In this document: positions 21,162-56,163 of the stretch, piece by piece
Position numbering within the stretch: position 1 is the stretch's first letter
Layout of the letters: the number at the start of each line of letters is the position of its first letter
Made by a program: the position numbers and the translations under genes
The notes under the pieces: model-generated
What the model was told of the DNA's origin: nothing
Databases searched by the model: none
Seen by the model: the letters and a program-made list of their open reading frames with translations, nothing else
NCBI RefSeq assembly: GCF_022201045.2
Contig: NC_068563.1
Span: forward strand, 558,001 to 622,000
Source of the DNA: Citrus sinensis
Taxonomy: Eukaryota > Streptophyta > Magnoliopsida > Sapindales > Rutaceae
Length of the DNA: 64,000 bases
Reading direction: 5' to 3'

Positions 21162-22017
21162 CTAGACCTAAAATCAGCAGCTGTTCAGTACGATGCTCCT
21201 CACTCTCTCTTCAAAATCTTTAGTTTTCTGATACACTTCTAAGTTTAATTTGTTGTTAACACACCAAATTTTTGGAAATGTTTTGGATGCTCCTAAACTT
21301 GCCTCTTAACCATCCATTTTTGTTGAGTTCATTTTATTTTATTCTTTATCCAAATAATAAGATAATTGAAGGTTTAAAAAGGAACATAAAATGAGTGAGG
21401 TTGATTTAATTAGAAAAGTATAAATTAATTAAAATGAGTCAGGTTGATTTAATTAGAAAAGTATAAATTAATTTTTTTATTGTGTGTATGGCGACCACCC
21501 AAATTTACGTACAAGCACGTTCAAAATCATTTTTTGTCTCGCATGTCTTATTAAATTAAATAAAGCAAAGATAAAATTATAAATGTGATAAAGCTGATTG
21601 ATGATTTGAAATTATAAAGGGTTCCAAAATCTTTTGAATGCATACTGTCGATTAAATAAGACCTTCTTTATTTTCTTCGAAAGAATTATATAATGACTAT
21701 ATCCAAAGTAAGAATTAAACAATGATGTGCATGTCTATCGGTAATTGAAGTGCTAAATTGTGATTGCAGCTAGATGGTGTTGTCTATAGCCTTTAAATCC
21801 ACACATTAGAACAACATCAGAACTATCCAACCAAGCAAAAACAATGTTAAAAAAAAAAAAAGTGAAAATGACAAAAGAGTCTGTAAATAAGTTGACTTTT
21901 GAAAAGAGGCAGGTCAGGCTCTTTAATTTTCATTCAAAATTAATCTATACTACACGTAGGTGGGTTTAGCAGGCCAGTAATATTGAGTAAATCTGATTTC
22001 TCGCCAAGTATTTGTGA
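21162..22017. other. Spacer inside the permease array
   Basis: AT-rich and without a supported gene. A 35-base segment (AAATGAGT(G/C)AGGTTGATTTAATTAG...) is repeated in tandem at about 21,388-21,470. Confidence 0.4.
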
Positions 22018-31948: not shown

Positions 31949-32618
31949 GGTAGTTGTTAAGTTACATAATCATGTAACTTACATCAACCCAATACTTGTT
32001 ACTACTAACATAAAAACATAAACAACAAAAACTAAATGTGTGATAGTGGTATCAAGTGTTGAGTTAATGTAAGTTACGTGATCGCCACTTGGGCTTGTAG
32101 CCCAGTGGTGAACCATTGCCCTCAAAGTTAAGCATGATTATGAGGGCAATGGTTCGAGTCCCCACGGACTCAACCTCCCTTAATTAAATATAATTGTGTG
32201 GAGACTACTTACAACGTCTTTCTCCCTTGCGAAATGCGAGTGGAGTAGAGACATCCCTCATCCGTGAGGGGTATTTGGCTGGACATGTGCTTCATAGACT
32301 AAAAATGTAATAATGTAAGTCTCATGTATATATATCTGATTGTAAATATCAGTGTAATGACCTCCTGTCATCCCTTGCGAAATGCGAGTGGAGTAGAGAC
32401 ATCCCTCATCCGTGAGGGGTATTTGGCTGGACATGTGCTTCATAGACTAAAAATGTAATAATGTAAGTCTCATGTATATATATCTGATTGTAAATATCAG
32501 TGTAATGACCTGCTGTCATAGCAGTTATATAGATTTCTGTGTAATACAGTAACCTGATGCTTAATCAGTTCAAAAAAAAAAAATGTAAGTTACGTGATCA
32601 TGTAACTTAACAAGCGTC
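31949..32618. mobile_element. Mutator-type MITE carrying a nested SINE
   Basis: Terminal inverted repeats of about 50 bases: the left end reads TTGTTAAGTTACATAATCATG..., and the reverse complement of the right end reads TTGTTAAGTTACATGATCACG.... Within each arm AAGTTACAT and ATGTAACTT pair again as a small hairpin. A 9-bp direct repeat TTTTAATTA lies at 31,940-31,948 and 32,619-32,627, as expected for Mutator-like elements. Without the SINE and its duplication the element is about 154 bases. Unit A of the surrounding duplication is the empty site. Confidence 0.75.
32084..32582 (+). mobile_element. tRNA-derived SINE, family 1, copy 2 (with internal tandem duplication)
   Basis: Starts GCCACTTGGGCTTG, A box TAGCCCAGTGG at 32,098-32,108, B box GGTTCGAGTCC (perfect consensus) at 32,151-32,161, and ends in an A run. 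Target duplications of 17 bases (ATGTAAGTTACGTGATC) lie at 32,067-32,083 and 32,583-32,599. The body segment 32,224-32,371 (148 bases) is repeated directly at 32,372-32,519 with almost no change, making this copy longer than its siblings. It sits inside the right arm of a MITE. Confidence 0.93.
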
Positions 32619-42516: not shown

Positions 42517-45416
42517 CTACTGAGGATCGAAGAAGCTGACCTTAATTCCAGTGTCAGCGATAACATAAATCCCAGAAGCTGTCACAAGCACACTAAGAAT
42601 GATTCCAAGGACACCAAGTACCCAATTGAGCCACCAAATAGGCCCATATGCCTTCGGTTTCTTAACCTTAAGCCACATGAAACATGGATAAGCTAATGTC
42701 ACAGGCAATGCAATCCCTCCAATCAGACCAGCCAGGCTTCCCAGAAATGGGATTGCCACCGCAATAAAGAACATGAAGAATCCGTAGATAGCCCGGATAA
42801 GCGGCCGGAGCCACCACGGACACGGCTTCTTCTTCCTCCGCACGTACAGTGACTCCAAATCATCAAACATTGGCATCCCATAGATTTGGAATGAGCTTAC
42901 CGCGCTTATAATCACAAACAAACTCGTTAGTCCTAGGATAAACCGCGACGTGTCGGTGGCGTGGAATGCAATCAAGGCCACAAGCATACCCCCGCTTGGT
43001 ATCTGTTAATTTTTTTTCTTAAATAAGATTGCATGTACAATATTGTGTAAAATTGTCAAGGTAAATTTTGGTGAGAATTAGAAAGAAAATTTGTTACCAA
43101 TTGACCGTAAGCCCAATAGCCTCCAATTGCAATAGGGAACAAGCACGTTGCAATAATAAGGTATGCGAATTTGACTCCCTTCCACATGGGCACAGTCGAT
43201 GGATGCTTCTCGCTTGAAGGCATCGTGGCCTGCAGCCAATCAAAGTTTTATTAGAAATTAATTAATTTTTAAGTTCTTCATTCTCTGAAAATGAAGTAAC
43301 ATTTCTAAGTACAAAAAATTCGTTTCAAAAACCTTTAATCTACTTGCGTAAAATAGACGGCAACGAATTGAAAAAAAAAAATGTTAAAAGTTTTTGACTT
43401 ATTTCTCATCATCAGTTACAGACTCTTACAGAAGGTAAATAAATCGTGAAAATTGAAAAAGCCCTCGAATTATATAAATTGTTTAGAAAAAAGTCAAAGG
43501 TCAAAATTTGCAACTGGCAGTATTTTATTGTGTGCGTTTTCTATAGTGAGATTCACACGTCACTTAGTGGGGTACATTTTCTATTTTTCGAAATTCTACT
43601 CGCGCACATTTGATTAGACAAAAATTTTGGACGCTTCTTTTGACTTATGTAGAATAATTCGTTACGTTTGTATTTGATTGTACATTATTACAATCACTTA
43701 TATGAAAGGTATATGTAACAAGAATTTAATGGATATACACCAAATTATTCAAAACTTTTTTTTTTCAATTTATACTTTATATATACAAATTAAAATAGTA
43801 CGGTAATTAAAGTGCGGATATTCACAACTAAGAATTTGATAAAACATTATAGTTAATACGTACTTTAAGTAACCTGATTGTTTATTTTCATAAGATTCCT
43901 CAAAATAATATATAAAATAGGGTCCGGCTACGGTTCAACTGTGATACTGTCCTATAGTTGCATCCAGCCGTTAGATGCACTTAAACGGGTGGGGTCTATT
44001 GACATCCAACGGATGGATGCAACTGTGGCACAGTACCACAGTTGCACCGCATGTTTTCCCTATAAAGTATCTCTGAATTAATCAAGTTCAATAATTTGAA
44101 TTTCCAAGTTGATTAATTAATTTCTAATTAAGAGCAGAAACGAAGGAATTTGTGATTTTACCTGAATTTCAAGTGAAAGGTTGTGGCCTCTGAATGCAAA
44201 AGCAACAATCCCAAGAGCATTAAGAACATCAACAGCCCTAACAATACCTTCTTTGTCTGTTTGAACTGGGTTGTAAGACACACCAGGTAGCCTGCCCTTG
44301 GCAACCGAGACGACCCATATGATGGTACAATATCCGACGGCTGTGATGGCTCCGACGAGCGAGACGCCGGCGATGGAGTTCAAGTTGGGCAGTTGGGATA
44401 GAACAACGGCAGCACAGGTGAAGACCAAGTACCATTCGACTGTCGTGAGTGGCTGCGAAGTGCATGTGGCGCCACACGTGATTTGGTAGAAAGTCTTCAT
44501 TGATGTGCCTCCTACGATGATCAGAGCAACGCATGTTCCCGCTGATAGCTGCAGCAGCGGCAAGAAGGCTAGCCATTTTGCAAGCTTTTCACCTATATAC
44601 ATATTCGATCAAGTGTCATCTATTAAGTTCAAACACTTCAAGAAATTAACTATTTCCAGTTTCCTATTTCAATCAGACAAATATGCGTCCGAAATGTAGA
44701 AACAATTATTAACATAGATTCATCCGAGGGGTATAAATATAACAATACATAAAGCTTTACCGAAAGTTACGCCACAAAGTTGAAGATATCTGCTATAGCG
44801 CATGCCGGTTTCAACATTTTCATGGAGTTGCACCAATATGTATAGAGTATAAAGTTGCCAGATGAATGTCAATGTCAAGAATATAATCCCCCAAGCCCTA
44901 GAATAAAGATTAATTACAACACAAGCTAATTAGAAAGAGAAAGAAAAGTAAATTAAGAAAAATCATTAATCAATTTGATTATTTAATTTACCAGCCAAGA
45001 ATGGGAAAGGCAACAGGAAGAACAAGAGCTTGAATACCAATTCCAGCACAAAGAGTGTGAAACGCAGCGTAGTAAGCGTTTCCATTCCTGGACTCAGTGA
45101 TGGGAAGCCATGCATCTTGAGGGTCAAGCCTCGTTAATTTAAGAGCCTTTCTGATGGGGCTTCCCAAAGGAGTAATAAAACGCGGAGTCCTTATTCTTGG
45201 TGTTAAATTTCTTGGAGTTGCATTTCTAGGTGTTGAAGTTCTTGGGGTTTTGCTGGCCGGTTCTATTTGGTCACCCACGGCGAGCAACGGCGATCGTGAT
45301 AGCGATGGTGAGTGAATCTGTGACGGAGGAGCCGATATTGGCGGCGTCGCCGGCGTTGACGATAGTCTTGGTGTTACAGGATAGGAATAATTACTTGCTT
45401 CATCAGCTTCACTCAT
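42517..45416 (-). CDS. Lysine/histidine transporter-like 8 (AAAP amino-acid permease), array copy 4
   Basis: Five exons, 45,416-44,992, 44,897-44,761, 44,592-44,162, 43,229-43,098 and 43,002-42,517, in frame, giving 536 residues. The start is the ATG of MSEADEASNYSY; further upstream the open frame has no ATG. The N-terminal 110 residues are Ser/Pro rich with a run of T-P-R repeats (ASKTPRTSTPRNATPRN), then FITPLGSPIRKAL and the Aa_trans domain from RLDPQDAWLPITESRNG. This N-terminus is diagnostic of Arabidopsis LHT-like 8 (At1g47670). Repeated TPR and SP motifs look like proline-directed kinase sites in the cytosolic tail (inference). It likely imports amino acids at the plasma membrane. Intron 3 (932 bases, 44,161-43,230) holds a MITE and is absent from the tandem paralogues. 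Confidence 0.93.
43918..44062. mobile_element. Foldback MITE in intron 3 of the LHT-like 8 gene
   Basis: Ends TAGGGTCCGGCTACGGTTCAACTG and, reversed, TAGGGAAAACATGCGGTGCAACTG. The two halves pair over most of their length (GTTGCATCCA(G/T)CCGTT(A/G)GATG). With TA at both borders and 145 bases it looks Stowaway/mariner-like, though the superfamily is a guess. Confidence 0.65.
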
Positions 45417-45486
45417 TTTTGAAACTTTTTTTCCTTTTAATTTTTTTTCAACTCTACCTCTGTATGCTAACAATCCGATATTTGCT

Positions 45487-45488
<2 letters not shown>

Positions 45489-45521
<33 letters not shown>

Positions 45522-45522
45522 G
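45489..45522. repeat. Compound (TG)n(TA)n microsatellite
   Basis: About nine TG units followed by about eight TA units, roughly 75 bases upstream of the LHT-like 8 start codon, probably in the 5' UTR or core promoter. Confidence 0.9.
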
Positions 45523-46017
45523 AATATATCTAGGCCTTAGTTACATGAGAAGTATGTAACGAGAAATAAATTATTAAATGTTGGTCAAGAATTCTGCTGT
45601 TCAATTAATTGCATGTACTGGCCAACCAATTTGGTCTACAGCTTTGGCTAAATCATAATATTTAATTTGGTCAGCATGTACCAACGTAAGTACACATTAA
45701 CCATCAAGTCACTGCCTCAACTTCATTTGGCACAAATTTGACTGGGAATTAATGAAGTCTCCAAATAAAACAAAAAAAAAAATTGAAAATAAATTATAAG
45801 AGTTTTAGATGAAGAATCACATGCAATACAGCTCAAAGACGAACAAATGTGGAAACCCAATTCTGAAGTATTTTTGTCATTGTGAGAATTCTTAGCCGTC
45901 CAAGTGGGTTTTTTTTTTTTCACCACTTCGAGCTATGAAACACGGGGCTCTTAATTTAGAAAAGGGGTAGATTTCTTTCGATTGTTAGTAGAGTAAATTT
46001 TTAAGTTATGTTTGATA

Positions 46018-46169
46018 GGCCGTATTGGGTCTCGATTAATCCGAATTCGGGGTGTAGTCACAAGTTAAAGCTCTTTACCCCTCCCAAATGGCGTGTTTAG
46101 TGGGGATCGAACCTGAGAGTTCTTCTCACAAACTCAGCTTGCGCTGCTAACTGAACCACAACCATTTGG
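46018..46169 (-). mobile_element. tRNA-derived SINE-like element, family 3 (minus strand)
   Basis: On the minus strand it contains TGGTTCAGTTAGCAGCGC (A-box region) and CAGGTTCGATCCCC (B-box region) at tRNA-like spacing, then a body ending GGATTAATCGAGACCCAATACGG that recalls the tails of the Au SINE group. Flanking repeats TATGTTTGATA and TATGTTTAATA (46,007-46,017 and 46,170-46,180) differ at one base. Confidence 0.6.
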
Positions 46170-46180
46170 TATGTTTAATA

Positions 46181-47149
46181 AACTTTTAGACTCTATTATA
46201 ATCTATAAATATATGTATTTAAATTCTTAGTAGACCTCATATTGTAACATATCTGTAGATATTATAATAATTTAATTTCTTTTTGGTTTCTATAGACAAA
46301 GAATCAAAGAAATTTTATAATTTAATATTTGTCATAGAGAATGCTTAGAATGTGGGAAATATTAATTATAAAATATTGAAGAAAGTTATTATCCATAATC
46401 TGTTTTATTGCTAGCTATCATAGTTTTGTCCTTTATATTAACTTCAATTGCTAGATGCTTTCAATAAAAGATATATTACTTCAATGATTTCACATGATGG
46501 ATAGATTAAAAGATACTCTAAATCTCTTTTACATTTTTATATTTCAGGGAAAAATCGCAATAATATAAACTGAAAGATTCCCCTTTGTTTAATTTAATAT
46601 GTATATGGTCTTGAAATAAGAGCCAGAAAATATGAATACAATAAAAAAAAAAAAAGCAAAGGGTTCTTGAGGTTTTTTTTGTTGTTTTTGAGTCAAACCA
46701 AAGTTACAAAGTAATCAATTTTTTAAGTGAATTTTTTATATATATTTTCTTTATCACATTTCTTTATATTTTCTTTTATACAAAGAGTATTGACGAATTC
46801 AAAGAAGTACTGCTATCTATGTGATGAATTCTTTTTGCAAATCCCTTGTTTCCATTCTACCACATATAGCATATATTTTTCATTTATTATAGGTCTAGTT
46901 AATTACACCGGCGGCTTAAGAATGGACAAAATTAGACAACTGCCTAATTAATATACAACTTGTGGAAACATTGGAAAATGTCAATTCTACGGTCAATCTT
47001 TAGTGTGGATTTTTTCCTCTTACAAAACATTAATTATGTACGCATTTGTATTTTGTGAATGAAAACATCACGACAGAAGGAAATAACTAAAATTTACAAC
47101 TTGCTAAATATCTATTATGTAATAATTAATAATCATAGACTTGGGCTTT
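46181..47149. other. Gene-free AT-rich spacer
   Basis: No supported gene or recognised repeat. Confidence 0.4.
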
Positions 47150-47163
47150 TTTTTTTTTGTGTT

Positions 47164-47186
47164 GGGGGGGGGGGGGGGGGGGGGGG
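47164..47186. repeat. Poly-G tract (more than 20 G)
   Basis: An uninterrupted G run after TTTTGTGTTG. The paralogous segment at 51.8 kb has only GTTGGCGCC here, so the run is an expansion or an assembly artefact. Confidence 0.9.
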
Positions 47187-47674
47187 ATTTTGGTGGTTGT
47201 TGAGACTTGAGAGATTGAAACTGTTTGACAAACTTGAGTTGTAATGCTTTTTTTCTCTAGAAATTAATCAAACCAATGGGCTTTAATCAACTTCCCTTTG
47301 AAAATCGAGTTGAGTATCTTTCATCAATATTTTAATCAAGTTCTTGCGTCTCGCTCTCACATGTTTGATTAAATTTCCATGGCAAAATTGTGCAGCCAAA
47401 AACAAGGTTGGTTGATGCGATCTTAGAATTTTTTCGGGAAAAATGATTAAATGAAGCAGCCTCTTCTGTTGTCTTTTATTTTTACGAAAGAGAGTTGCAT
47501 GTAATATTTGAAGGACAACGGCCAACGTTGAAATCAATTACTAATGTTTTTAAACCGCAACATGGAAATCAGCAGAGATGCTTCCTTTCAAACTTTTTTA
47601 ACATTTATTTACCAGCCGCGTGAGCCACATGTTTAATTTATCTTTTTTTTTGCTCTTTTAATCACAAGTTCACA

Positions 47675-48020
47675 GCCACTTGGGCCTGTGGTCCGGTGGT
47701 GAACCATTACCCTTAAAGTTAAGCATGACTATGAGGGCAATGGTTCGAATCCCCACGAACTCAAACTCCCTCAATTAATTATAATTGTATGGAGATTGTT
47801 TATAACGTCTTTCTCCCTTGCGAAATGCGAGTGGAGTCGAGACATCCCTCTCCCTTTAGGAATATTTGGCTGGGCATGTACTTCATAGAATAAAAATGTA
47901 ATAATGTAAGTCCCAGGTATATATCTGATTGTAAATATCAGTGCAATGATATGTTGTCATTTGTAAATATCTCTGTGTAATACAATAACCTGATGCTTAA
48001 TCAGTTTAAAAAAAAAAAAA
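47675..48020 (+). mobile_element. tRNA-derived SINE, family 1, copy 3
   Basis: Starts GCCACTTGGGCCTG, has A-box-like TGGTCCGGTGGTG and B box GGTTCGAATCC (fits GGTTCGANTCC), a body without the duplication seen in copy 2, and an A-rich end. Target duplications AATCACAAGTTCACA (15 bases) lie at 47,660-47,674 and 48,021-48,035. The empty site is visible in the duplicated segment near 52,330. Confidence 0.93.
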
Positions 48021-48172
48021 AATCACAAGTTCACAAGTTGGAACCTTAGTTTAGAAAATGGCTACATTAAATTTTTGCTATACTTTTTCTAATCACAAGT
48101 GGGTGTTTTTAGACCATGACTTGACTACATGAAAATTTATTTTGATTTTTGTTATTTGTAATCTCAACTCTT

Positions 48173-49166
48173 ATGGGGTTGGTTATTTTGGACTATATTG
48201 ACCCACCGTACATATTAGAGCGACTAAAATGGGTAGGCAGATTGTGTTCGTTTCGTGTTTGTTTTATGTCTTATTAAATTTAAGTCAATTTAAGTCAATT
48301 TAAAAATAATTTATTTAATAATCGTGTCAAAATATTGAGATCTAAATCCAACACAAAAAATAAATGGATTACCCAATAATTTGTTTAATATCTACAAATT
48401 TAACAAGTGTCACACACACACACACCCCAAAATATTAAACATTTATAATATTAAAATTTTAATTATATATATATATGTAAATAATATTACACATCAATAT
48501 AATAAAATATACATATATACCAATATTTTACACACTTACACTATTAAAATTCTAAATTTATCTAAAAATTTTATAAATAAAACATTATGTATATATCTAT
48601 CCTTCCAAAAAAAAAAATTGAAAAGCGAGAATTATATCCAATATTTGATTTTTAGTGACAAAAATTTAGAAATTAATTTTTTTAAAAATATAATTATGTC
48701 ATTAGTCTGGTAAAAAAGTCAAGAACTTTAAATCTAACCTGATACAGGAAAAAATCGTGTCGACTCAAATTCAATTCATTTAATAATCATGTCAAATTTG
48801 ACGATCCATACTCATTCATCGGGTAATATGATTTTGTCAAATTTTCTAGCTCTGACACGTATCCGGCATGATGCGGATGCGGATCTAGATCCAACCGAAT
48901 TCGCAAATCCGGATCCGGATTGTTAAGTAAGTGGTTATTGGGAAAAAAAACCAAAAACAAAGCAATTCGCTCGCTGAATCCCTAACACCCGGCTACTATA
49001 ACTGCTGCACCGTCGCCGGAGCTGCTAGATGTTCATGTTCCCGCGCTTGAATGCTGCTCTCACGCCGCCGTTAGTTTCTGTTTGTTGGGAGGGGATAGGC
49101 ATAGACTCTGATAAGAAGAAAGGAGGGAGCTCCGCACGACAATAAAAATCCAGATAAAATTATAAA
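48173..49166. other. Upstream region of the TRF-like gene
   Basis: AT-rich with a small CA repeat near 48,411 and many TATA runs. The last 300 bases are more GC-rich and likely hold the promoter and 5' UTR. A short inverted CGGAT-rich stretch (CGGATGCGGATC ... GGATCCGGAT) lies at 48,865-48,925. Confidence 0.4.
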
Positions 49167-51544
49167 ATGGACGAAGACATCTCACGGTGGGTGATCGAAT
49201 TCCTGCTTCGAAATTCACCGTCCGATCAACTAATCAACAGAATCCTCGCGATTATCCCCATTTCAAACAACAACAATTTCCGTTTAAAGAAAACCCTCCT
49301 CCTCCGTTCTATACAATCCCAACTCTCCTCGGACGGAGACGCTTCGCTCTCCAAAACGATTTTAGAAAATCTGAAAGCAGTCCGAGATTTGGATGAGAAA
49401 GAGGGGATCGCTATCACGAGGTCGATGGAAGCGGCGATTCGGGATGCTGCCGAGAATACTCAAAACGACGACGCCTTGCGCCAAGTGGTTAAAACTTATT
49501 TAGAAGAAGCGTGGGCCAGCATGGGGCCCACTTTTTTAGAATTGGCTGCAGCGGGGGGAAGAGGGAGAGCCCATGTAGAAACCGAAGACAAAGAGAAAGG
49601 CAAAGGTAGCTTTTTTGTATTTAATCTTTCATTTCTTTGTTTTCAAATTTTTGATAAACTCATAGCAGTGTCTGATTCTTTGATTTTGAGGTGAAATTAA
49701 AAAAAATAAAATACACTTCACTTGGACTGCTGCTTGTTATTGATATGGTTTGTTGTTACATCTAAACTAAGCATGCATGCCTTGTTTTAGGAATTCGGAA
49801 GGAAAATGTGCAGCCTAAGCGCAAGCACGTTGCTTCCCATAGACGCGCAAGGGGACCAGTTAGGATTATTGACAGTGAGGACTTGAGCTCAGATGAGCCG
49901 TGTAGTCAATATGATACCTTGCCCACCCCAGAAGTTAATAAAGTTCAAGAAGCACTTAAGTCCAGTTCTTTGGAGTTGCAAGCTATTGTAACGGACCCTC
50001 TTCCTGATGCTTTACGCCAGGCTGAGGCTGTGGTGTCTGGCATGGCCAGAGCAAATCAGATTCCTGAACCTTCTGTGGGGAGGGAGACTAATGTGGATAA
50101 ACCTGTGTTGAATCCATCTGTTGATGCTCATTTGGAACCTCTCCAAGCTAACCAGGGCAATCGTAAAGATGAATCTTGTAGTCATCAGAGTAACGTGCCT
50201 AAATCCAGCTTGATGGAAAGGAATAGTACTGCCCACGCCTATGAGGTGCTTATTTGTTGTTTGTTTTTGTTATCTTCAATTTGTGTGGCTAAGGCTAACA
50301 TATTGTGTCTTACAGATGACGTCTGTAATTTTCCATTATATTTCATAGTGGTTGCTGTCATCTGTTTCCTTTGTCTATTTTACATGACTTAAATTCTTCC
50401 TGCTTGTTAGCACAAGTATGCTGTATATCTGCTTTTTCCTGAAGAGTGTGTTTTTCTACCTTTTTTACCTTGCTTGAGAGATGTAGATCAGTTTTGTTTG
50501 ATTGGCAAAATATGGATAAGTAGATTAAGCAAGTTCAGACAATGAATCTTTCCTGTTTTATTGTTGAACAGCCCTTTTATTTATTTATTATTTTTTAATT
50601 CATATTGACATGGAAATGCTGTAAACTTCTATTTTACAATCTGTTTGGCCCACGAAGTTGTCAAGAATATTATGTTTAATTCTTTGCTTGGATCAATATT
50701 TTTTTAATTTTTTGGTCTATATTATGTCTAAGTGTGTCTATCATCATGGGCTTTTTTTGTAGTGGGATGATTCAATTGATGAAGAGCCATCCAATCAAGG
50801 GAATAGATTTCACTTACCTAGTCCAAAGAGAAAGGCTGTATCACCATTGAAGAATCATGATGTCACCAAACTTGCCAGAAGGAGAAAGAAGAAGAAGTGG
50901 AGTCTTGAGGAAGAAGATGCTTTAAGGAAGGGCGTGGAACAGTATGTGATTCTCTTAAGGAAAACCTTTGAAAAATCTAGACTTCTTACTCATTTGAGTT
51001 TGATATATTCTATTTAACCAAGTGCATTGCACATACATCCCCAGTTGATTCTGTGCATCAGTGTATTTTGTGGGAGTCAGTGAGGTGGGTGGGATTGTGA
51101 TGCCTGTCTTGTCTGCAAACTAAAGAGAAATAGGACTTTTTTAGATCATAGGGAGACTCATTGAAGTTTAGTGCTCTTGCTTCTATGCAAATAGTGGAGC
51201 TAAAAATATTTTGACCAGTTTATTTCTTCTTTTCCCATTCTGATTCTTTTTATTCCCTATGATGAAGGTTTGGTAAAGGAAACTGGAAGCTCATTTTAAA
51301 ATCCAACCCCGGAGCATTTGATGAGAGAACTGAGGTGATTTTGCTGTATACTGATTTGCAGTGGCGTTTATTTACTTTTTTGGGTTGAATTGTACTTTTA
51401 ATTGACGTAAAACCTAACTTTGTTTCAGGTTGATTTGAAGGACAAGTGGAGGAACATGACACGTTATTCTTTTTATTGACGTAAAACTCAACTTTGTTTC
51501 AGGTTGATTTGAAGGACAAGTGGAGGAACGTGATGCGTTATTGA
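49167..51544 (+). CDS. TRF-like single-Myb (telobox) DNA-binding protein with two alternative last exons
   Basis: Exons 49,167-49,605, 49,791-50,245, 50,763-50,941 and 51,268-51,334, then either 51,429-51,479 or 51,503-51,544; frame is kept at all joints. The first option gives 396 residues. The N-terminus MDEDISRWVIEFLLRNSPSDQ is typical of plant TRF-like (TRFL) proteins. The middle is acidic and probably disordered. A Lys/Arg tract (RRRKKKKW) leads into one C-terminal Myb repeat (KKWSLEEEDALRKGVEQFGKGNW ... VDLKDKWRN), whose third helix is the telobox motif that reads plant telomere repeats TTTAGGG. The family binds telomeric DNA in the nucleus; this protein's own role is inferred. The last exon with its acceptor and part of its intron is duplicated in tandem (period 74 bases), ending the protein in NMTRYSFY or NVMRY. 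Confidence 0.88.
51395..51542 (+). repeat. 74-bp tandem duplication of the last exon of the TRF-like gene
   Basis: Two units, about 51,395-51,468 and 51,469-51,542, each with TTGACGTAAAAC, the acceptor AACTTTGTTTCAG and the exon sequence GTTGATTTGAAGGACAAGTG. Exon portions differ at only a few bases (AACATGACACG versus AACGTGATGCG). Confidence 0.95.
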
Positions 51545-51784
51545 TACTTGTAACTAAGGTTTGCTCTTGTGTGCATTATTTGCTTAAATGTATTGTAAAG
51601 CCATCTGTATCTTGATACCACTTTGATGTTTCCTACCCACGATCATACATTTTCCCTGGATTCAGGGTTTTGCGGATTCGTAGAGGAAATGCCATTGTTA
51701 TTATTTTGGGGGAGTTTCCTCTTTATGACTCTTTTAAGCATGTACTATAGCAATGTGATGAATTCAAATATTGACTTTTGACTT

Positions 51785-52462
51785 TTTGTTTTTTTGTTGG
51801 CGCCTTTTCTGTGGTTGTTCAGAGATTGAAAACTGTTTTGTTCGGTTTAAGTGTCTGACAAAACTTGAGTCGTAATGCTTCCCTTCCCCCCCTCCTCTTC
51901 TCTTCCCCACCCAGCCCCAAAGTGATTAACCAAACCAATGAAATTTAATCAATTGCAACAATCCACTTTCATAATTCAGTTCCGTATCTTTCGGAAAATT
52001 TAAGTTCTTGTGTCTCACTCTCTCTCGCTTTTAGCTTTTATTTTTATTTTTATTTTAAATAAACATAAATTGTGCAGCCAAACAAATGGTTGGTGGCTAT
52101 TTTAAAATATCTCGATTTCGAACTTAATTACTAATGAAGCAGCCTCTTTGTTGTCTTTTATGAAAGAAAGCGGCATGTAATATTTGAAGAACAAACATTG
52201 AAATCAATTGGTCAATTTCTGACTGCAAAATGAAATCAACAGATACGCTTCCTTTCAGACCTCATTTTTTATTTACTTACCAGCTGCATAAGCCACGTGT
52301 TTAATTTTTTTCTTTTATTTTACTCACAATTTCAGAAGTGGGTATTCAGTTTAGAAAATGGCTACATCAAATTTTCTTTTTTCTTTTTCTAATCACAAGC
52401 GGGTATTTAATTTAGACCATGACTTGGCTACATGAAAATTTAATTTGATTTTTGTTTTTGTT
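51785..52462. repeat. Flanking segmental duplication, copy B
   Basis: Downstream counterpart of 47,150-48,172, without the SINE and the poly-G tract. Immediately downstream of the TRF-like gene. No coding potential seen. Confidence 0.8.
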
Positions 52463-52649
52463 TTCCCTAAGCATAAGGGTTTACTTTAGACCAGGGCTAC
52501 ATGAAACTTGCATATCCCGACTGGACCGATTGCCATTCCTATTTGTCAGCTGATGTTAAAATGTTTTAACTTTTACAAACGTAATTTACATAGTTCTTTT
52601 ATTTTTTAATCTTTCTCTTTGGCAGTGGAAACTGGATAATGCTTCAGGA

Positions 52650-52990
52650 ACATCCCAGCTGACAAAACTTGGTAGAATTTTTCAATCGATTGACTTTAAT
52701 TATTCAAATCAGTTGGTTTAACAAATCGCAATGTTCTAAATTCTTGCCTCACGATATTTTACCATGATTATAATCAATAGAAAAATAAAAATGGTGCAAT
52801 CAAGAGGTCCTAAACTCTTCACATACACATAATTTTAGCAGCCTCTTTTACTTTTAATGTGCAAGTTACTGCAATTAACCTCGAAGAATTTTAAAGAGCA
52901 ACGACTGAAACCAAATAGTCAATTTTCTAACAGAAAAAGATTTCATCAGCATGCAATCTTGGTTTATTCTTTCCAAATTTGTCATCTATA
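52650..52990. repeat. Probable third, diverged copy of the flanking segment
   Basis: Shares GCAGCCTCTTT, GTGCA(A/G)(T/C)CAA, an AAATTCTTG...CTCAC stretch and AATAGTCAATTTTCTAACAG with copy B in the same order, but with many differences. Confidence 0.45.
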
Positions 52991-53690
52991 ATTTTTTTGC
53001 TAATTAGGAATTTTATGAAAAGGAAAACAAGCATTAATTTATGTTGCTGGCTACCTTCGGTCTAAACTTATTTTATATTTATCTACCATATGAAAAATCA
53101 TATTCATACGATTTGTATAATTGTATTTGGTAGAGAACATAATCTTTTAATTAAAGGAGATTATATAATAATTAAAGATTGGTTGCTTCGGTATAAGCTT
53201 TTTGTTGATTAATAAATAATTTTCTTGTAAATTAGTCCTCAAGGATGGGAAAGCGATCTTTCGCATTTAAAATATCGATAATGATTCGAATGAGTTTCAA
53301 ACAAAGATGTTTGAATTTGCAACTCCCTCAACATTCACACTTTTCTCTTTTTCTTTTTTCTTTTTTCTTTTTAATTCACTTATTTTAGATTTTTATTGCT
53401 AATTGTATATAGGATGGAAAAAAAGTGCTATATGGGGTGTTTCCAATTAATTAATTAATTAATGGGGAAAAAGTTTAGATCACAAAAAAGTTGATAAAAT
53501 TTTTTTTTCTATGAAATTAATTGAAGTATAATAATTTGTGTGGACCATTTACAAGATTTTCGTGATCATCTGATGATCAACTCAACAACTGCAAGCCAAT
53601 AACTGCTGGCTATTAGTGTGATCATGATGAAAATCATTATGAGATAATGAGCATTTAGTAATAGCTATAGAATTAAGCAAAGCTTCCTTC
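52991..53690. other. Gene-free spacer
   Basis: AT-rich; no gene or repeat recognised. Confidence 0.35.
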
Positions 53691-53715
53691 AAGTTTCTAT
53701 CAACACATCCTCGAG

Positions 53716-54023
53716 TCAAAGTCTCAAAGAGACTGCATACTTAATGAACATTGCATCAAATGGTAATGTGATTGGTTCATTGCTTGGCAAGCCAAATTCT
53801 TCTTCAGACATATTCAAGAGTTCTTGAAATATTTAGTTGTTAAGGTGTGGAATGGAGAACACCAACTGGCTTTGATCAGCTGTGTAAACAACAAAATGAC
53901 CCTTTTCCGCTACTGATGAATTGTTGAATCTTGAAAATGAAATTTTTTTTCCTCTTTGAGGGTAGCTAGTCTTTGCCATTTTTCTTTTCCTCTTTGATGA
54001 ACTTTCTTGGAGATGATCATCAT
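53716..54023 (-). pseudogene. Dead SAUR (small auxin-up RNA) gene
   Basis: On the minus strand MMIISKKVHQRGKEKWQRLA begins a SAUR-like protein with the core VAEKGHFVVYTADQ, SIPHLNN and MSEEEFGLPSNEPITLPFDAMF. A TAA follows SIPHLNN in the middle of the domain, and the C-terminal part hits another stop after YAVSLRL. The basic N-terminus is also altered compared with the KLIKMAKKWQ of its neighbours. A TATA box remains upstream. It is a close relative of the SAUR at 56,164. Confidence 0.85.
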
Positions 54024-54089
54024 GTTGTGTTAGGAGATTTAGTTCTTCAAGAGTCTGAGTTGAGCAGAAAGCAATGCAATGCCGTTGGC

Positions 54090-54097
54090 TTTATATA
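54090..54097 (-). promoter_or_regulatory. TATA box upstream of the dead SAUR gene
   Basis: The minus strand reads TATATAAAGCC about 67 bases upstream of the pseudogene ATG. Confidence 0.5.
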
Positions 54098-54990
54098 ACT
54101 AAAATTCTTTTGCATGTAGGGTTCTATTTGTAAGGCTTCTTGGGTGCATATTCACGTGCTGATTGGGAGACTAAAGGCGTCGCCGGCCATGAGTTTTTGA
54201 ATCTTCATTGCTTGGTGAGTCTATGAGAGCCACAAAATTGAGACAAGCCTGATCTGATCAACCGGCTATTTCATTAACGAGTGTCATGTAGAACTACTTC
54301 CATTTGGCAAGGGAAAATGATTTGGCATAGATTCATTATAGACTGTTGGCCCCAAGCCCCCGACATGTTCCGAGTGAACTCCCAAACAAGAGTTGCATAT
54401 AGGTTCAAATTATTTTAAAGAGTTTATTTCTTGCAAGTCACCGTTTGGACAGCAGAATCTGCTGATTCAAGTGATATGGATCACGCAATTCTATTAGCTT
54501 TCTGTCTCTTAACCAACCAGAAAGTAAAAGCTAGAGGGCAAAAGTGATTGATGATTAGGCGTATGAACTTGTTGGTCATTTGCTTCCAAGGTCAAGTATG
54601 GGACAAGTTTATGTATAGGGCAATGCCATATGTATGCTCATTAATCTTCACGACTTTTAGCACATGTTTTGTTTATTGGTCCGTTCTGTAGACATCAGGA
54701 GTTGTTATTCCCTCTGATGTTTGCAAAAATATTGGACCCATCGCAATGTGAGGCTATTTGCAAATTCCATGGATATTCTCTGGGTATGTTCCATTTTGAT
54801 TTGTTGACTTTCCAGTAGAACCTAACGTGTCATGGCGCTGAGTTCCAAACAACATCACATGATTTTGCATCTAATGTGACTTATCATAAGAAAAGCTGCA
54901 TGTGATGGAAAAATCTTCAGCCATTAGAGTATCTAACAAGCACATTTCTGGTTATTTGATTACTCAGGCAAAGAAGCTTTCTTCAACAGC
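54098..54990. other. Divergent spacer between dead SAUR and SAUR (+)
   Basis: Should hold the promoter of the plus-strand SAUR. No convincing TATA box lies within 100 bases of its ATG. Confidence 0.35.
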
Positions 54991-55371
54991 ATGCTCAGTG
55001 CCAAGAAGCTCATGAAAATGGCAACAAAGTGGCAGAGGCAGCTGAAATTGGAAGAAAAAAGAACTCTGTTACAGCGTTCAAAAAGTTTTATCAATTCAAA
55101 CACCTCACCAGCAGTGGCTGACAAGGATCATTTTGTTGCGTGCACTATGGATAATAGGCGTTTAGTGATTCCAGTTCCGTATCTTTACAGTGACATCTTC
55201 AGAGAACTCTTGAGAATGTCCGAGGAGGAGTTTGGGTTGCCGAAAGATGGCCTTATAATGTTCCCATGTGATTCTTTCTTCCTGGAGTATGTTGTAAGTA
55301 CCTCTTGCAGGTCGTTGTCATCATCTTTACATCAAGGGCTGTGGAACAAGCATGTACTTGTTTCTAATTGA
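54991..55371 (+). CDS. SAUR-like auxin-responsive protein
   Basis: Intronless, 126 residues, starting MLSAKKLMKMATKWQRQ, the standard SAUR start in this subgroup. The core includes VADKDHFVACTMDNRRLVIPVPYLYSDIFRELL, then MSEEEFGLPKDGLIMFPCD and FLEYVVS. The usual KGHF(V/A)VY is DHFVACT here, a deviation in the conserved core. After the VVS position the C-terminus (TSCRSLSSSLHQGLW) differs from SAURs that continue LIQRG. SAURs are small, short-lived proteins that promote cell expansion, often by inhibiting PP2C.D phosphatases; this role is inherited from the family. It is the only plus-strand member in the cluster. Confidence 0.88.
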   Translation: MLSAKKLMKMATKWQRQLKLEEKRTLLQRSKSFINSNTSPAVADKDHFVACTMDNRRLVIPVPYLYSDIFRELLRMSEEEFGLPKDGLIMFPCDSFFLEYVVSTSCRSLSSSLHQGLWNKHVLVSN

Positions 55372-56163
55372 ATAATTGTCCAAAATTACATTTTTGAGAT
55401 TGTACAGAAGGTTTTTGGGATAAATAAGAAGTTTCAATATCTTTGTACTACTTTTTGTAAATAATTAATATGGTAAATTTGATTATAAGTAACATACTAA
55501 CATCAATAAAAGAAGCAATCTCATGTGACATGTTGCGAAGGAGGTCCAACTTCTCTGGCAAAATAACTACGTCCAAAGCAATCTCATTCATTACAGCCTT
55601 TTCCGAATGATTTTTTCTTCTCAACGAATCATGTCCACATAAAAGAGCTCCCGCATATAAATGAAGAATCTGCTAACTCTGGCATGATAGAGTTTGCAGA
55701 GACCTGTCGTTTGTTCACTTTAGGGTCATTATATTTCACTTATTTTTGAACCAAATGGTGTAGTTTAATATTTTTTACTGCTAGAAAAAAATACAAACTT
55801 GATATGATGACATGAAACCATATACAATAGTATCATATCTACTTCCTTTGTTTCTAATTCCAAGGATTTTCTTTTGTTTCCTGTGCCACGATCTTGTTGA
55901 CCTATGTATGTTTTCACCTTTATGAAGGCATATATGAATAGAAATATGTCTTTTCTTCTGGATTTGCTGAAATTTTTCAGATTGCTTGATTTATTTTAGC
56001 TTGCCTTTTCTTTTTTGTTAGATACTGGTAACAAAAAGGCCTTCATAATCTTAACTATTTAGATTTAGCAGAAACCGGACGAATTTGAGAAAATCTCCGT
56101 GTATGTTCATTAAGATTAACAACTATCAAGCTATAACTTTGTATTACAAAAAGTAAATTTGCT
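55372..56163. other. Convergent spacer between two SAUR genes
   Basis: 3' flanks of the plus-strand and minus-strand SAURs. No other feature recognised. Confidence 0.4.

Follow-up and report, generated by a model that had tools for sequence, protein, structure and literature searches.

What becomes of a gene when its last coding exon is duplicated in place, together with the acceptor that defines it? The question is raised by a gene of Citrus sinensis that lies in a 64,000-nucleotide stretch of assembly GCF_022201045.2 (contig NC_068563.1, here C8, positions 558001-622000; this stretch is the window, and all positions without a contig name are counted within it). The gene carries a short tandem duplication that would offer one donor two alternative acceptors, each leading to a complete C-terminus, and the reading argued for here, which is judged moderately probable, is that both acceptors are used and that they yield similar Myb proteins.

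Gene structure and predicted protein

The gene is predicted from the sequence to consist of five exons on the forward strand, with a reading frame that is open throughout and introns that all begin with GT and end with AG (Table 1). Two parts of this model can be set beside a paralog on contig C7, described below: exon 1 shares 74% identity with it across residues 1-43, and the letters of the exon 2 acceptor are those found in the aligned paralog. Joining exon 4 to each of the two predicted last exons gives a protein of 396 amino acids ending in NMTRYSFY (end a) or one of 393 amino acids ending in NVMRY (end b). The predicted protein possesses a single Myb domain at its extreme C-terminus, where the Pfam profile PF00249 matches residues 341-390 of the spliced prediction with 40.8 bits for one end and 41.3 bits for the other, both above the curated cut-off of 24.4. 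In a PDB search with the domain that carries end a, the best of 43 sequences at E<=0.1 were the Myb domains of TRF2 and TRF1, with alignments that reach to three residues or fewer from the protein end. Elsewhere in the window, open frames on the minus strand at 44117-45536 look like those of a membrane transporter with several exons, of the amino-acid permease type, and a run of 23 consecutive G residues stands in AT-rich surroundings at 47164-47186.

Table 1. Predicted features of the gene and of its duplicated 3' end (window positions)
Feature	Position	Strand	Basis and remarks
Exon 1, coding part	49167..49605	+	Begins ATGGACGAAGAC; predicted model and ORF
Exon 2	49791..50245	+	Predicted model; acceptor TTGTTTTAG, donor GAG|GTGCTT
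Exon 3, start of Myb domain (RRRKKKKWSLEEEDALRKGVEQ)	50763..50941	+	Predicted model; Pfam PF00249
Exon 4, middle of Myb domain	51268..51334	+	Predicted model; donor GAG|GTGATT
Duplication copy 1 (74 bp): intron end, acceptor, exon 5a core	51395..51468	+	TRF program, repeat list, alignment
Upstream acceptor AACTTTGTTTCAG	51416..51428	+	Identical to downstream acceptor
Exon 5a, coding part	51429..51479	+	Predicted model; VDLKDKWRNMTRYSFY, then stop TGA
TTATT at copy junction	51464..51468	+	Likely breakpoint microhomology; also at exon end 51538-51542 and at the matching C7 intron position
Duplication copy 2 (74 bp): intron end, acceptor, exon 5b	51469..51542	+	TRF program, repeat list, alignment
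Downstream acceptor AACTTTGTTTCAG	51490..51502	+	Identical to upstream acceptor
Exon 5b, coding part	51503..51544	+	Predicted model; VDLKDKWRNVMRY, then stop TGA
Candidate 3' UTR intron, 107 nt, speculative	51559..51665	+	AAG|GTTTGC ... GATTCAG|GG; GT/AG inventory

The 74-bp duplication

A first-pass annotation of the sequence had proposed that the last exon, its acceptor and flanking intron sequence are repeated in tandem with a 74-bp period, and both the repeat finder TRF and self-BLAST agree with it. TRF reports an array at 51395-51542 (period 74, 2.0 copies, 91% matches, 0% indels, score 254), and when positions 44000-56000 are compared with themselves the copies align over 74 bases at 91.9% identity (E 5.5e-25), well beyond chance. 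The copies stand head-to-tail in exact register, without an indel, and differ at six sites (copy 1 positions 51400, 51414, 51415, 51456, 51460 and 51461). Each contains AACTTTGTTTCAG followed by GTTGATTTGAAGGACAAGTGGAGGAAC, which encodes VDLKDKWRN, and the predicted exon 4 (51268-51334) joins GTTGAT in frame either at 51429 or at 51503. Translation of the model bears out the annotated claim that both acceptors are intact and that both exons continue exon 4 in frame to the two ends given above, and the further claim that the upstream exon has a tail newly made from duplicated intron sequence is likewise right.

The coding differences between the copies number three, and each alters an amino acid. 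Relative to the Met-Met of the paralog, which has a single last exon, end a has Met-Thr and end b has Val-Met, and end a also gains SFY; the change of Met to Thr in copy 1 comprises two changes in one codon, and copy 2 has changed Met to Val.

Duplications of such a period are not rare in the window, because the TRF program finds three arrays with a period of at least 40 bp in these 64 kb (43 bp at 21387, 148 bp at 32223 and 74 bp at 51395), each of about two copies with 91-99% matches. What is notable about the 74-bp array is that it takes in an acceptor as well as a coding exon. The 148-bp duplication (32223-32519), with copies 99% alike, has a unit that by eye resembles ~47810-47960 and is apparently a dispersed repeat. 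Direct repeats also flank the gene, with 47385-47672 and 48023-48159 on one side and 52067-52334 and 52324-52461 on the other (73% and 85% identity), and a genome search with 51800-52470 gave four matches among the best candidates scored, all in the neighbourhood of the gene.

A decayed paralog and the order of events

When the whole genome (299.7 Mb, 11 contigs) was searched with the duplicated region, one other place was found, C7:20533059-20533147, with 86% identity over window positions 51464-51553, a match that spans copy 2 plus the 3' flank of copy 2. Further pieces of the gene lie at C7 from C7:20516150 on, with in-frame stops and frameshifts, and ~12 kb separates two parts of exon 3. 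To judge from these lesions, the C7 locus is a decayed, split paralog of the window gene; it has a single terminal exon, ending in NMMHY. Similar repeats, seen by eye, flank the part of the paralog with exons 3 to 5 (~1671-1760 and 4690-4770 of L031), and are probably transposable-element sequence that split it. A more broken fragment of the family, matching portions of exons 1 and 2 of the window gene, lies on the minus strand at C9:24182500-24185000 (L043 899-1247).

Identity to the window gene is ~70-86% for the C7 pieces, as against 92% between copy 1 and copy 2. Over the 73 gap-free sites of the unit, nine differences from C7 are common to both copies, four are found in copy 1 only and two in copy 2 only; polarised in this way, 51400, 51414, 51460 and 51461 changed in copy 1, and the other two of the six sites in copy 2. 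Copy 1 and copy 2 are thus most closely related to one another, and their origin by duplication is therefore read as younger than the split from C7, an order of events to be taken with care because one same-genome paralog supplies it and because gene conversion between the copies could feign youth. On the same comparison a single copy is most likely ancestral. The annotated view that the downstream exon keeps the original 3' flank is likewise supported, the paralog matching copy 2 together with its flank.

The paralog also helps to place the breakpoints. At the intron position concerned, TTATTCTTT is found in C7 and in copy 2 and TTGTACTTT in copy 1, and TTATT closes the exon in each of the three, so that a 5-nt TTATT repeat was probably present at both ancestral breakpoints. 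An intact predicted five-exon gene for a C-terminal single-Myb protein would then have gained the 74-bp head-to-tail duplication through slippage or template switching between the TTATT in intron 4 and the one that closes the last exon. The duplication doubled the acceptor along with the intron signals ahead of it, and with them the final coding exon. Searches of non-plant collections for relatives outside this genome gave 11 pattern matches in viral contigs and 60 in prokaryote genome contigs, none of which was confirmed.

Probable choice between two acceptors

Following such a duplication, one donor would face a pair of alternative 3' splice sites that have identical cores and lie 74 nt from each other. 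Splicing to the acceptor at 51428 would give a protein ending in MTRYSFY, with copy b staying in the 3' UTR, and splicing to the acceptor at 51502 would give one ending in VMRY. The first-pass annotation had called these ends mutually exclusive, which holds for the protein but not for the RNA, where exon 5b would stay in the 3' UTR whenever the upstream acceptor was chosen; because that choice keeps both copies, the event would be one of alternative 3' splice sites and not of mutually exclusive exons. Some use of each acceptor is probable, and the upstream one, owing to its shorter predicted intron (94 nt, against 168 nt for the downstream acceptor), is probably chosen no less often than the other. 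The choice is probably near-neutral for DNA binding, and DNA recognition should hardly differ because VDLKDKWRN is common to both ends. Two possible C-termini of a TRF-like Myb protein are indeed encoded, but they differ little.

A branch-site-like TTGAC lies 23 nt from each acceptor, the one in copy 2 sharing letters with the exon 5a stop codon. The copies also differ in CTAAC (copy 1) versus CTCAAC or TCAAC (copy 2), but as a branch site this element was rejected, as it lies less than 15 nt from the acceptor and the shared TTGAC is better placed in both copies. Within intron 4 the AG at 51361 was discarded as an acceptor, since the intron would be 27 nt. Introns of 57, 40 and 22 nt are taken to be too short for plants, and those are the lengths that would result if exon 5a were spliced onward into 5b from the GT at 51446, 51463 and 51481; a donor-like GT at 51496 would leave 7 nt only. 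The longest run without a difference between the copies is 40 nt and takes in the acceptor and VDLKDKWRN, with P ~0.05 if the six differences fall randomly. As evidence of selection for both copies the run was set aside, P being ~0.05 at best and the lower figure of 0.007 belonging to a stretch chosen post hoc.

How the duplicated end is in fact processed admits of other answers. If the upstream acceptor alone were used, exon 5b would be a fossil in the 3' UTR and the protein would merely have gained the tail SFY, an outcome that is unlikely but deserves to be taken seriously: its intron is shorter (94 versus 168 nt), and its acceptor is met first and has an intact core. The downstream acceptor and exon core have nevertheless stayed unchanged over 40 identical nucleotides, though this is a weak argument at P ~0.05, and copy b retains the second Met that is seen in C7 and in two C6 paralogs (the C9 paralog has Cys). 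The converse possibility, that copy 1 is dead and is removed within a 168-nt intron ending at the downstream acceptor, is quite improbable. The ancestral 3' end does belong to copy b, and four of the six differences, polarised against C7, arose in copy 1 as against two in copy 2, but four versus two is no significant excess, copy 1 has no visible loss of a splice signal, and nothing explains why an identical, nearer acceptor would be skipped. That the duplication is an assembly artefact or a mixture of two alleles is scarcely credible. Duplicates made by assemblers are normally identical, yet the copies differ at six of 74 sites; and the 81 differences per kb between them are far above the allelic differences of sweet orange, put at ~15 SNPs per kb in PMC13222484.

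Two more elaborate outcomes also arise from the arrangement of the sites. The last exon starts with GT, so each acceptor reads CAG|GT, and a new 74-nt GT...AG stretch extends over 51429-51502. There is a slim chance of two-step splicing (recursive, with a zero-length exon), in which the upstream acceptor would be used first and 51429-51502 then removed to give the b form. Were this so, a single tandem duplication would have furnished a plant gene with a young recursive splice site, and the sequence of the two steps would govern the proportions of the protein ends or, given a 3' UTR intron, mRNA stability. Similarly slim is the chance of a decay switch, a special case of the use of both acceptors, in which acceptor choice would set the mRNA level and not the type of protein. 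By the usual rule, decay requires a stop more than 50-55 nt before a junction, and the signals AAG|GTTTGC and GATTCAG|GG of the candidate 3' UTR intron are suitably placed, such that only the upstream choice would be a decay target because its stop lies 79 nt before the 3' UTR junction, against 14 nt (safe) for the downstream choice. Judged by the consensus donor, however, AAG|GTTTGC is far off, and the similarity to C7 stops too early for the putative intron to be compared.

Telomere binding and family membership

Recognition-helix motifs of the VDLKDKWRN type define the telobox. This TRF/telobox-type motif is encoded in both predicted last exons, and the nearest solved relatives are TRF1 and TRF2; the annotated telobox domain is sound to that extent, but a telomeric function is doubtful because there is no room for a Myb extension. 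Between WRN and the stop lie seven residues (end a) or four (end b). In the whole genome, LKDKWRN[MIVL] written as a DNA pattern has six matches, two in this gene, one on C7, two on C6 and one on C9, and the C6, C6 and C9 matches, in genomic DNA read unspliced, meet a stop 12, 5 and 9 residues past WRN; termination soon after WRN is ordinary among the relatives because these matches also stop 5-12 residues on.

According to PMC4924339, a review, the Myb domain of TRFL proteins alone is insufficient for telomeric DNA and the Myb extension is needed, and TRFL family 2, which is without the extension, shows no specific telomeric DNA binding in vitro; the extension is about 30 residues long in PMC4700174. 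Neither predicted end has the extension of ~30 residues that sets apart TRFL family 1, the telomeric DNA binders, and both have the C-terminal Myb domain without extension of TRFL family 2 and AID. A flat denial of telomere binding would be unsafe because rice OsAID1, of the AID family with its C-terminal Myb domain, was recovered in a telomeric-repeat pull-down (PMC4924339). On balance, the predicted sequence leaves the telomere reading of the window protein weakened, and for telomere biology the gene is probably of little weight because its protein is without the extension with which telomeric DNA binding is associated.

Comparison with known systems

The duplication is a modest variation on a known type, and no title on this gene or its duplication stood among the matches listed for exon duplication, acceptors, intron gain, TRFL/AID and citrus with TRFL. 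The citrus gene illustrates cleanly, with a paralog of its own genome to order the events, how a short tandem duplication can double an acceptor and a terminal coding exon with the frame kept. If both acceptors are used, as preferred here, the gene would also provide a natural matched pair, with 74-bp surroundings that differ at six sites only.

The closest precedent is the potato RdRp gene PGSC0003DMG402000361, for which PMC4974935 describes a tandem duplication across an intron-exon boundary with 106 RNA-seq junction reads. In both plant genes, the one in potato and the one in the window, an intron end and the beginning of the following exon have been copied head-to-tail, and the parent intron supplied the new acceptor along with its pyrimidine tract and putative branch site; the potato copies differ at ten nucleotides and the window copies at six. 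In potato the upstream copy of the exon held a cryptic donor, which led to a new intron and the gain of an exon, whereas in the window gene the exon is terminal and carries the stop, and the outcome would be a choice of acceptor. PMC2891723 also treats intron gain by duplication, in Drosophila. At the level of the protein, the likeness is to TRFL family 2 and AID, which are also without a Myb extension. Mutually exclusive exons of animals, such as those of Dscam, are alternative exons born by tandem duplication, like the window exons, but the window copies are not separately bounded internal exons, and the upstream choice would retain both.
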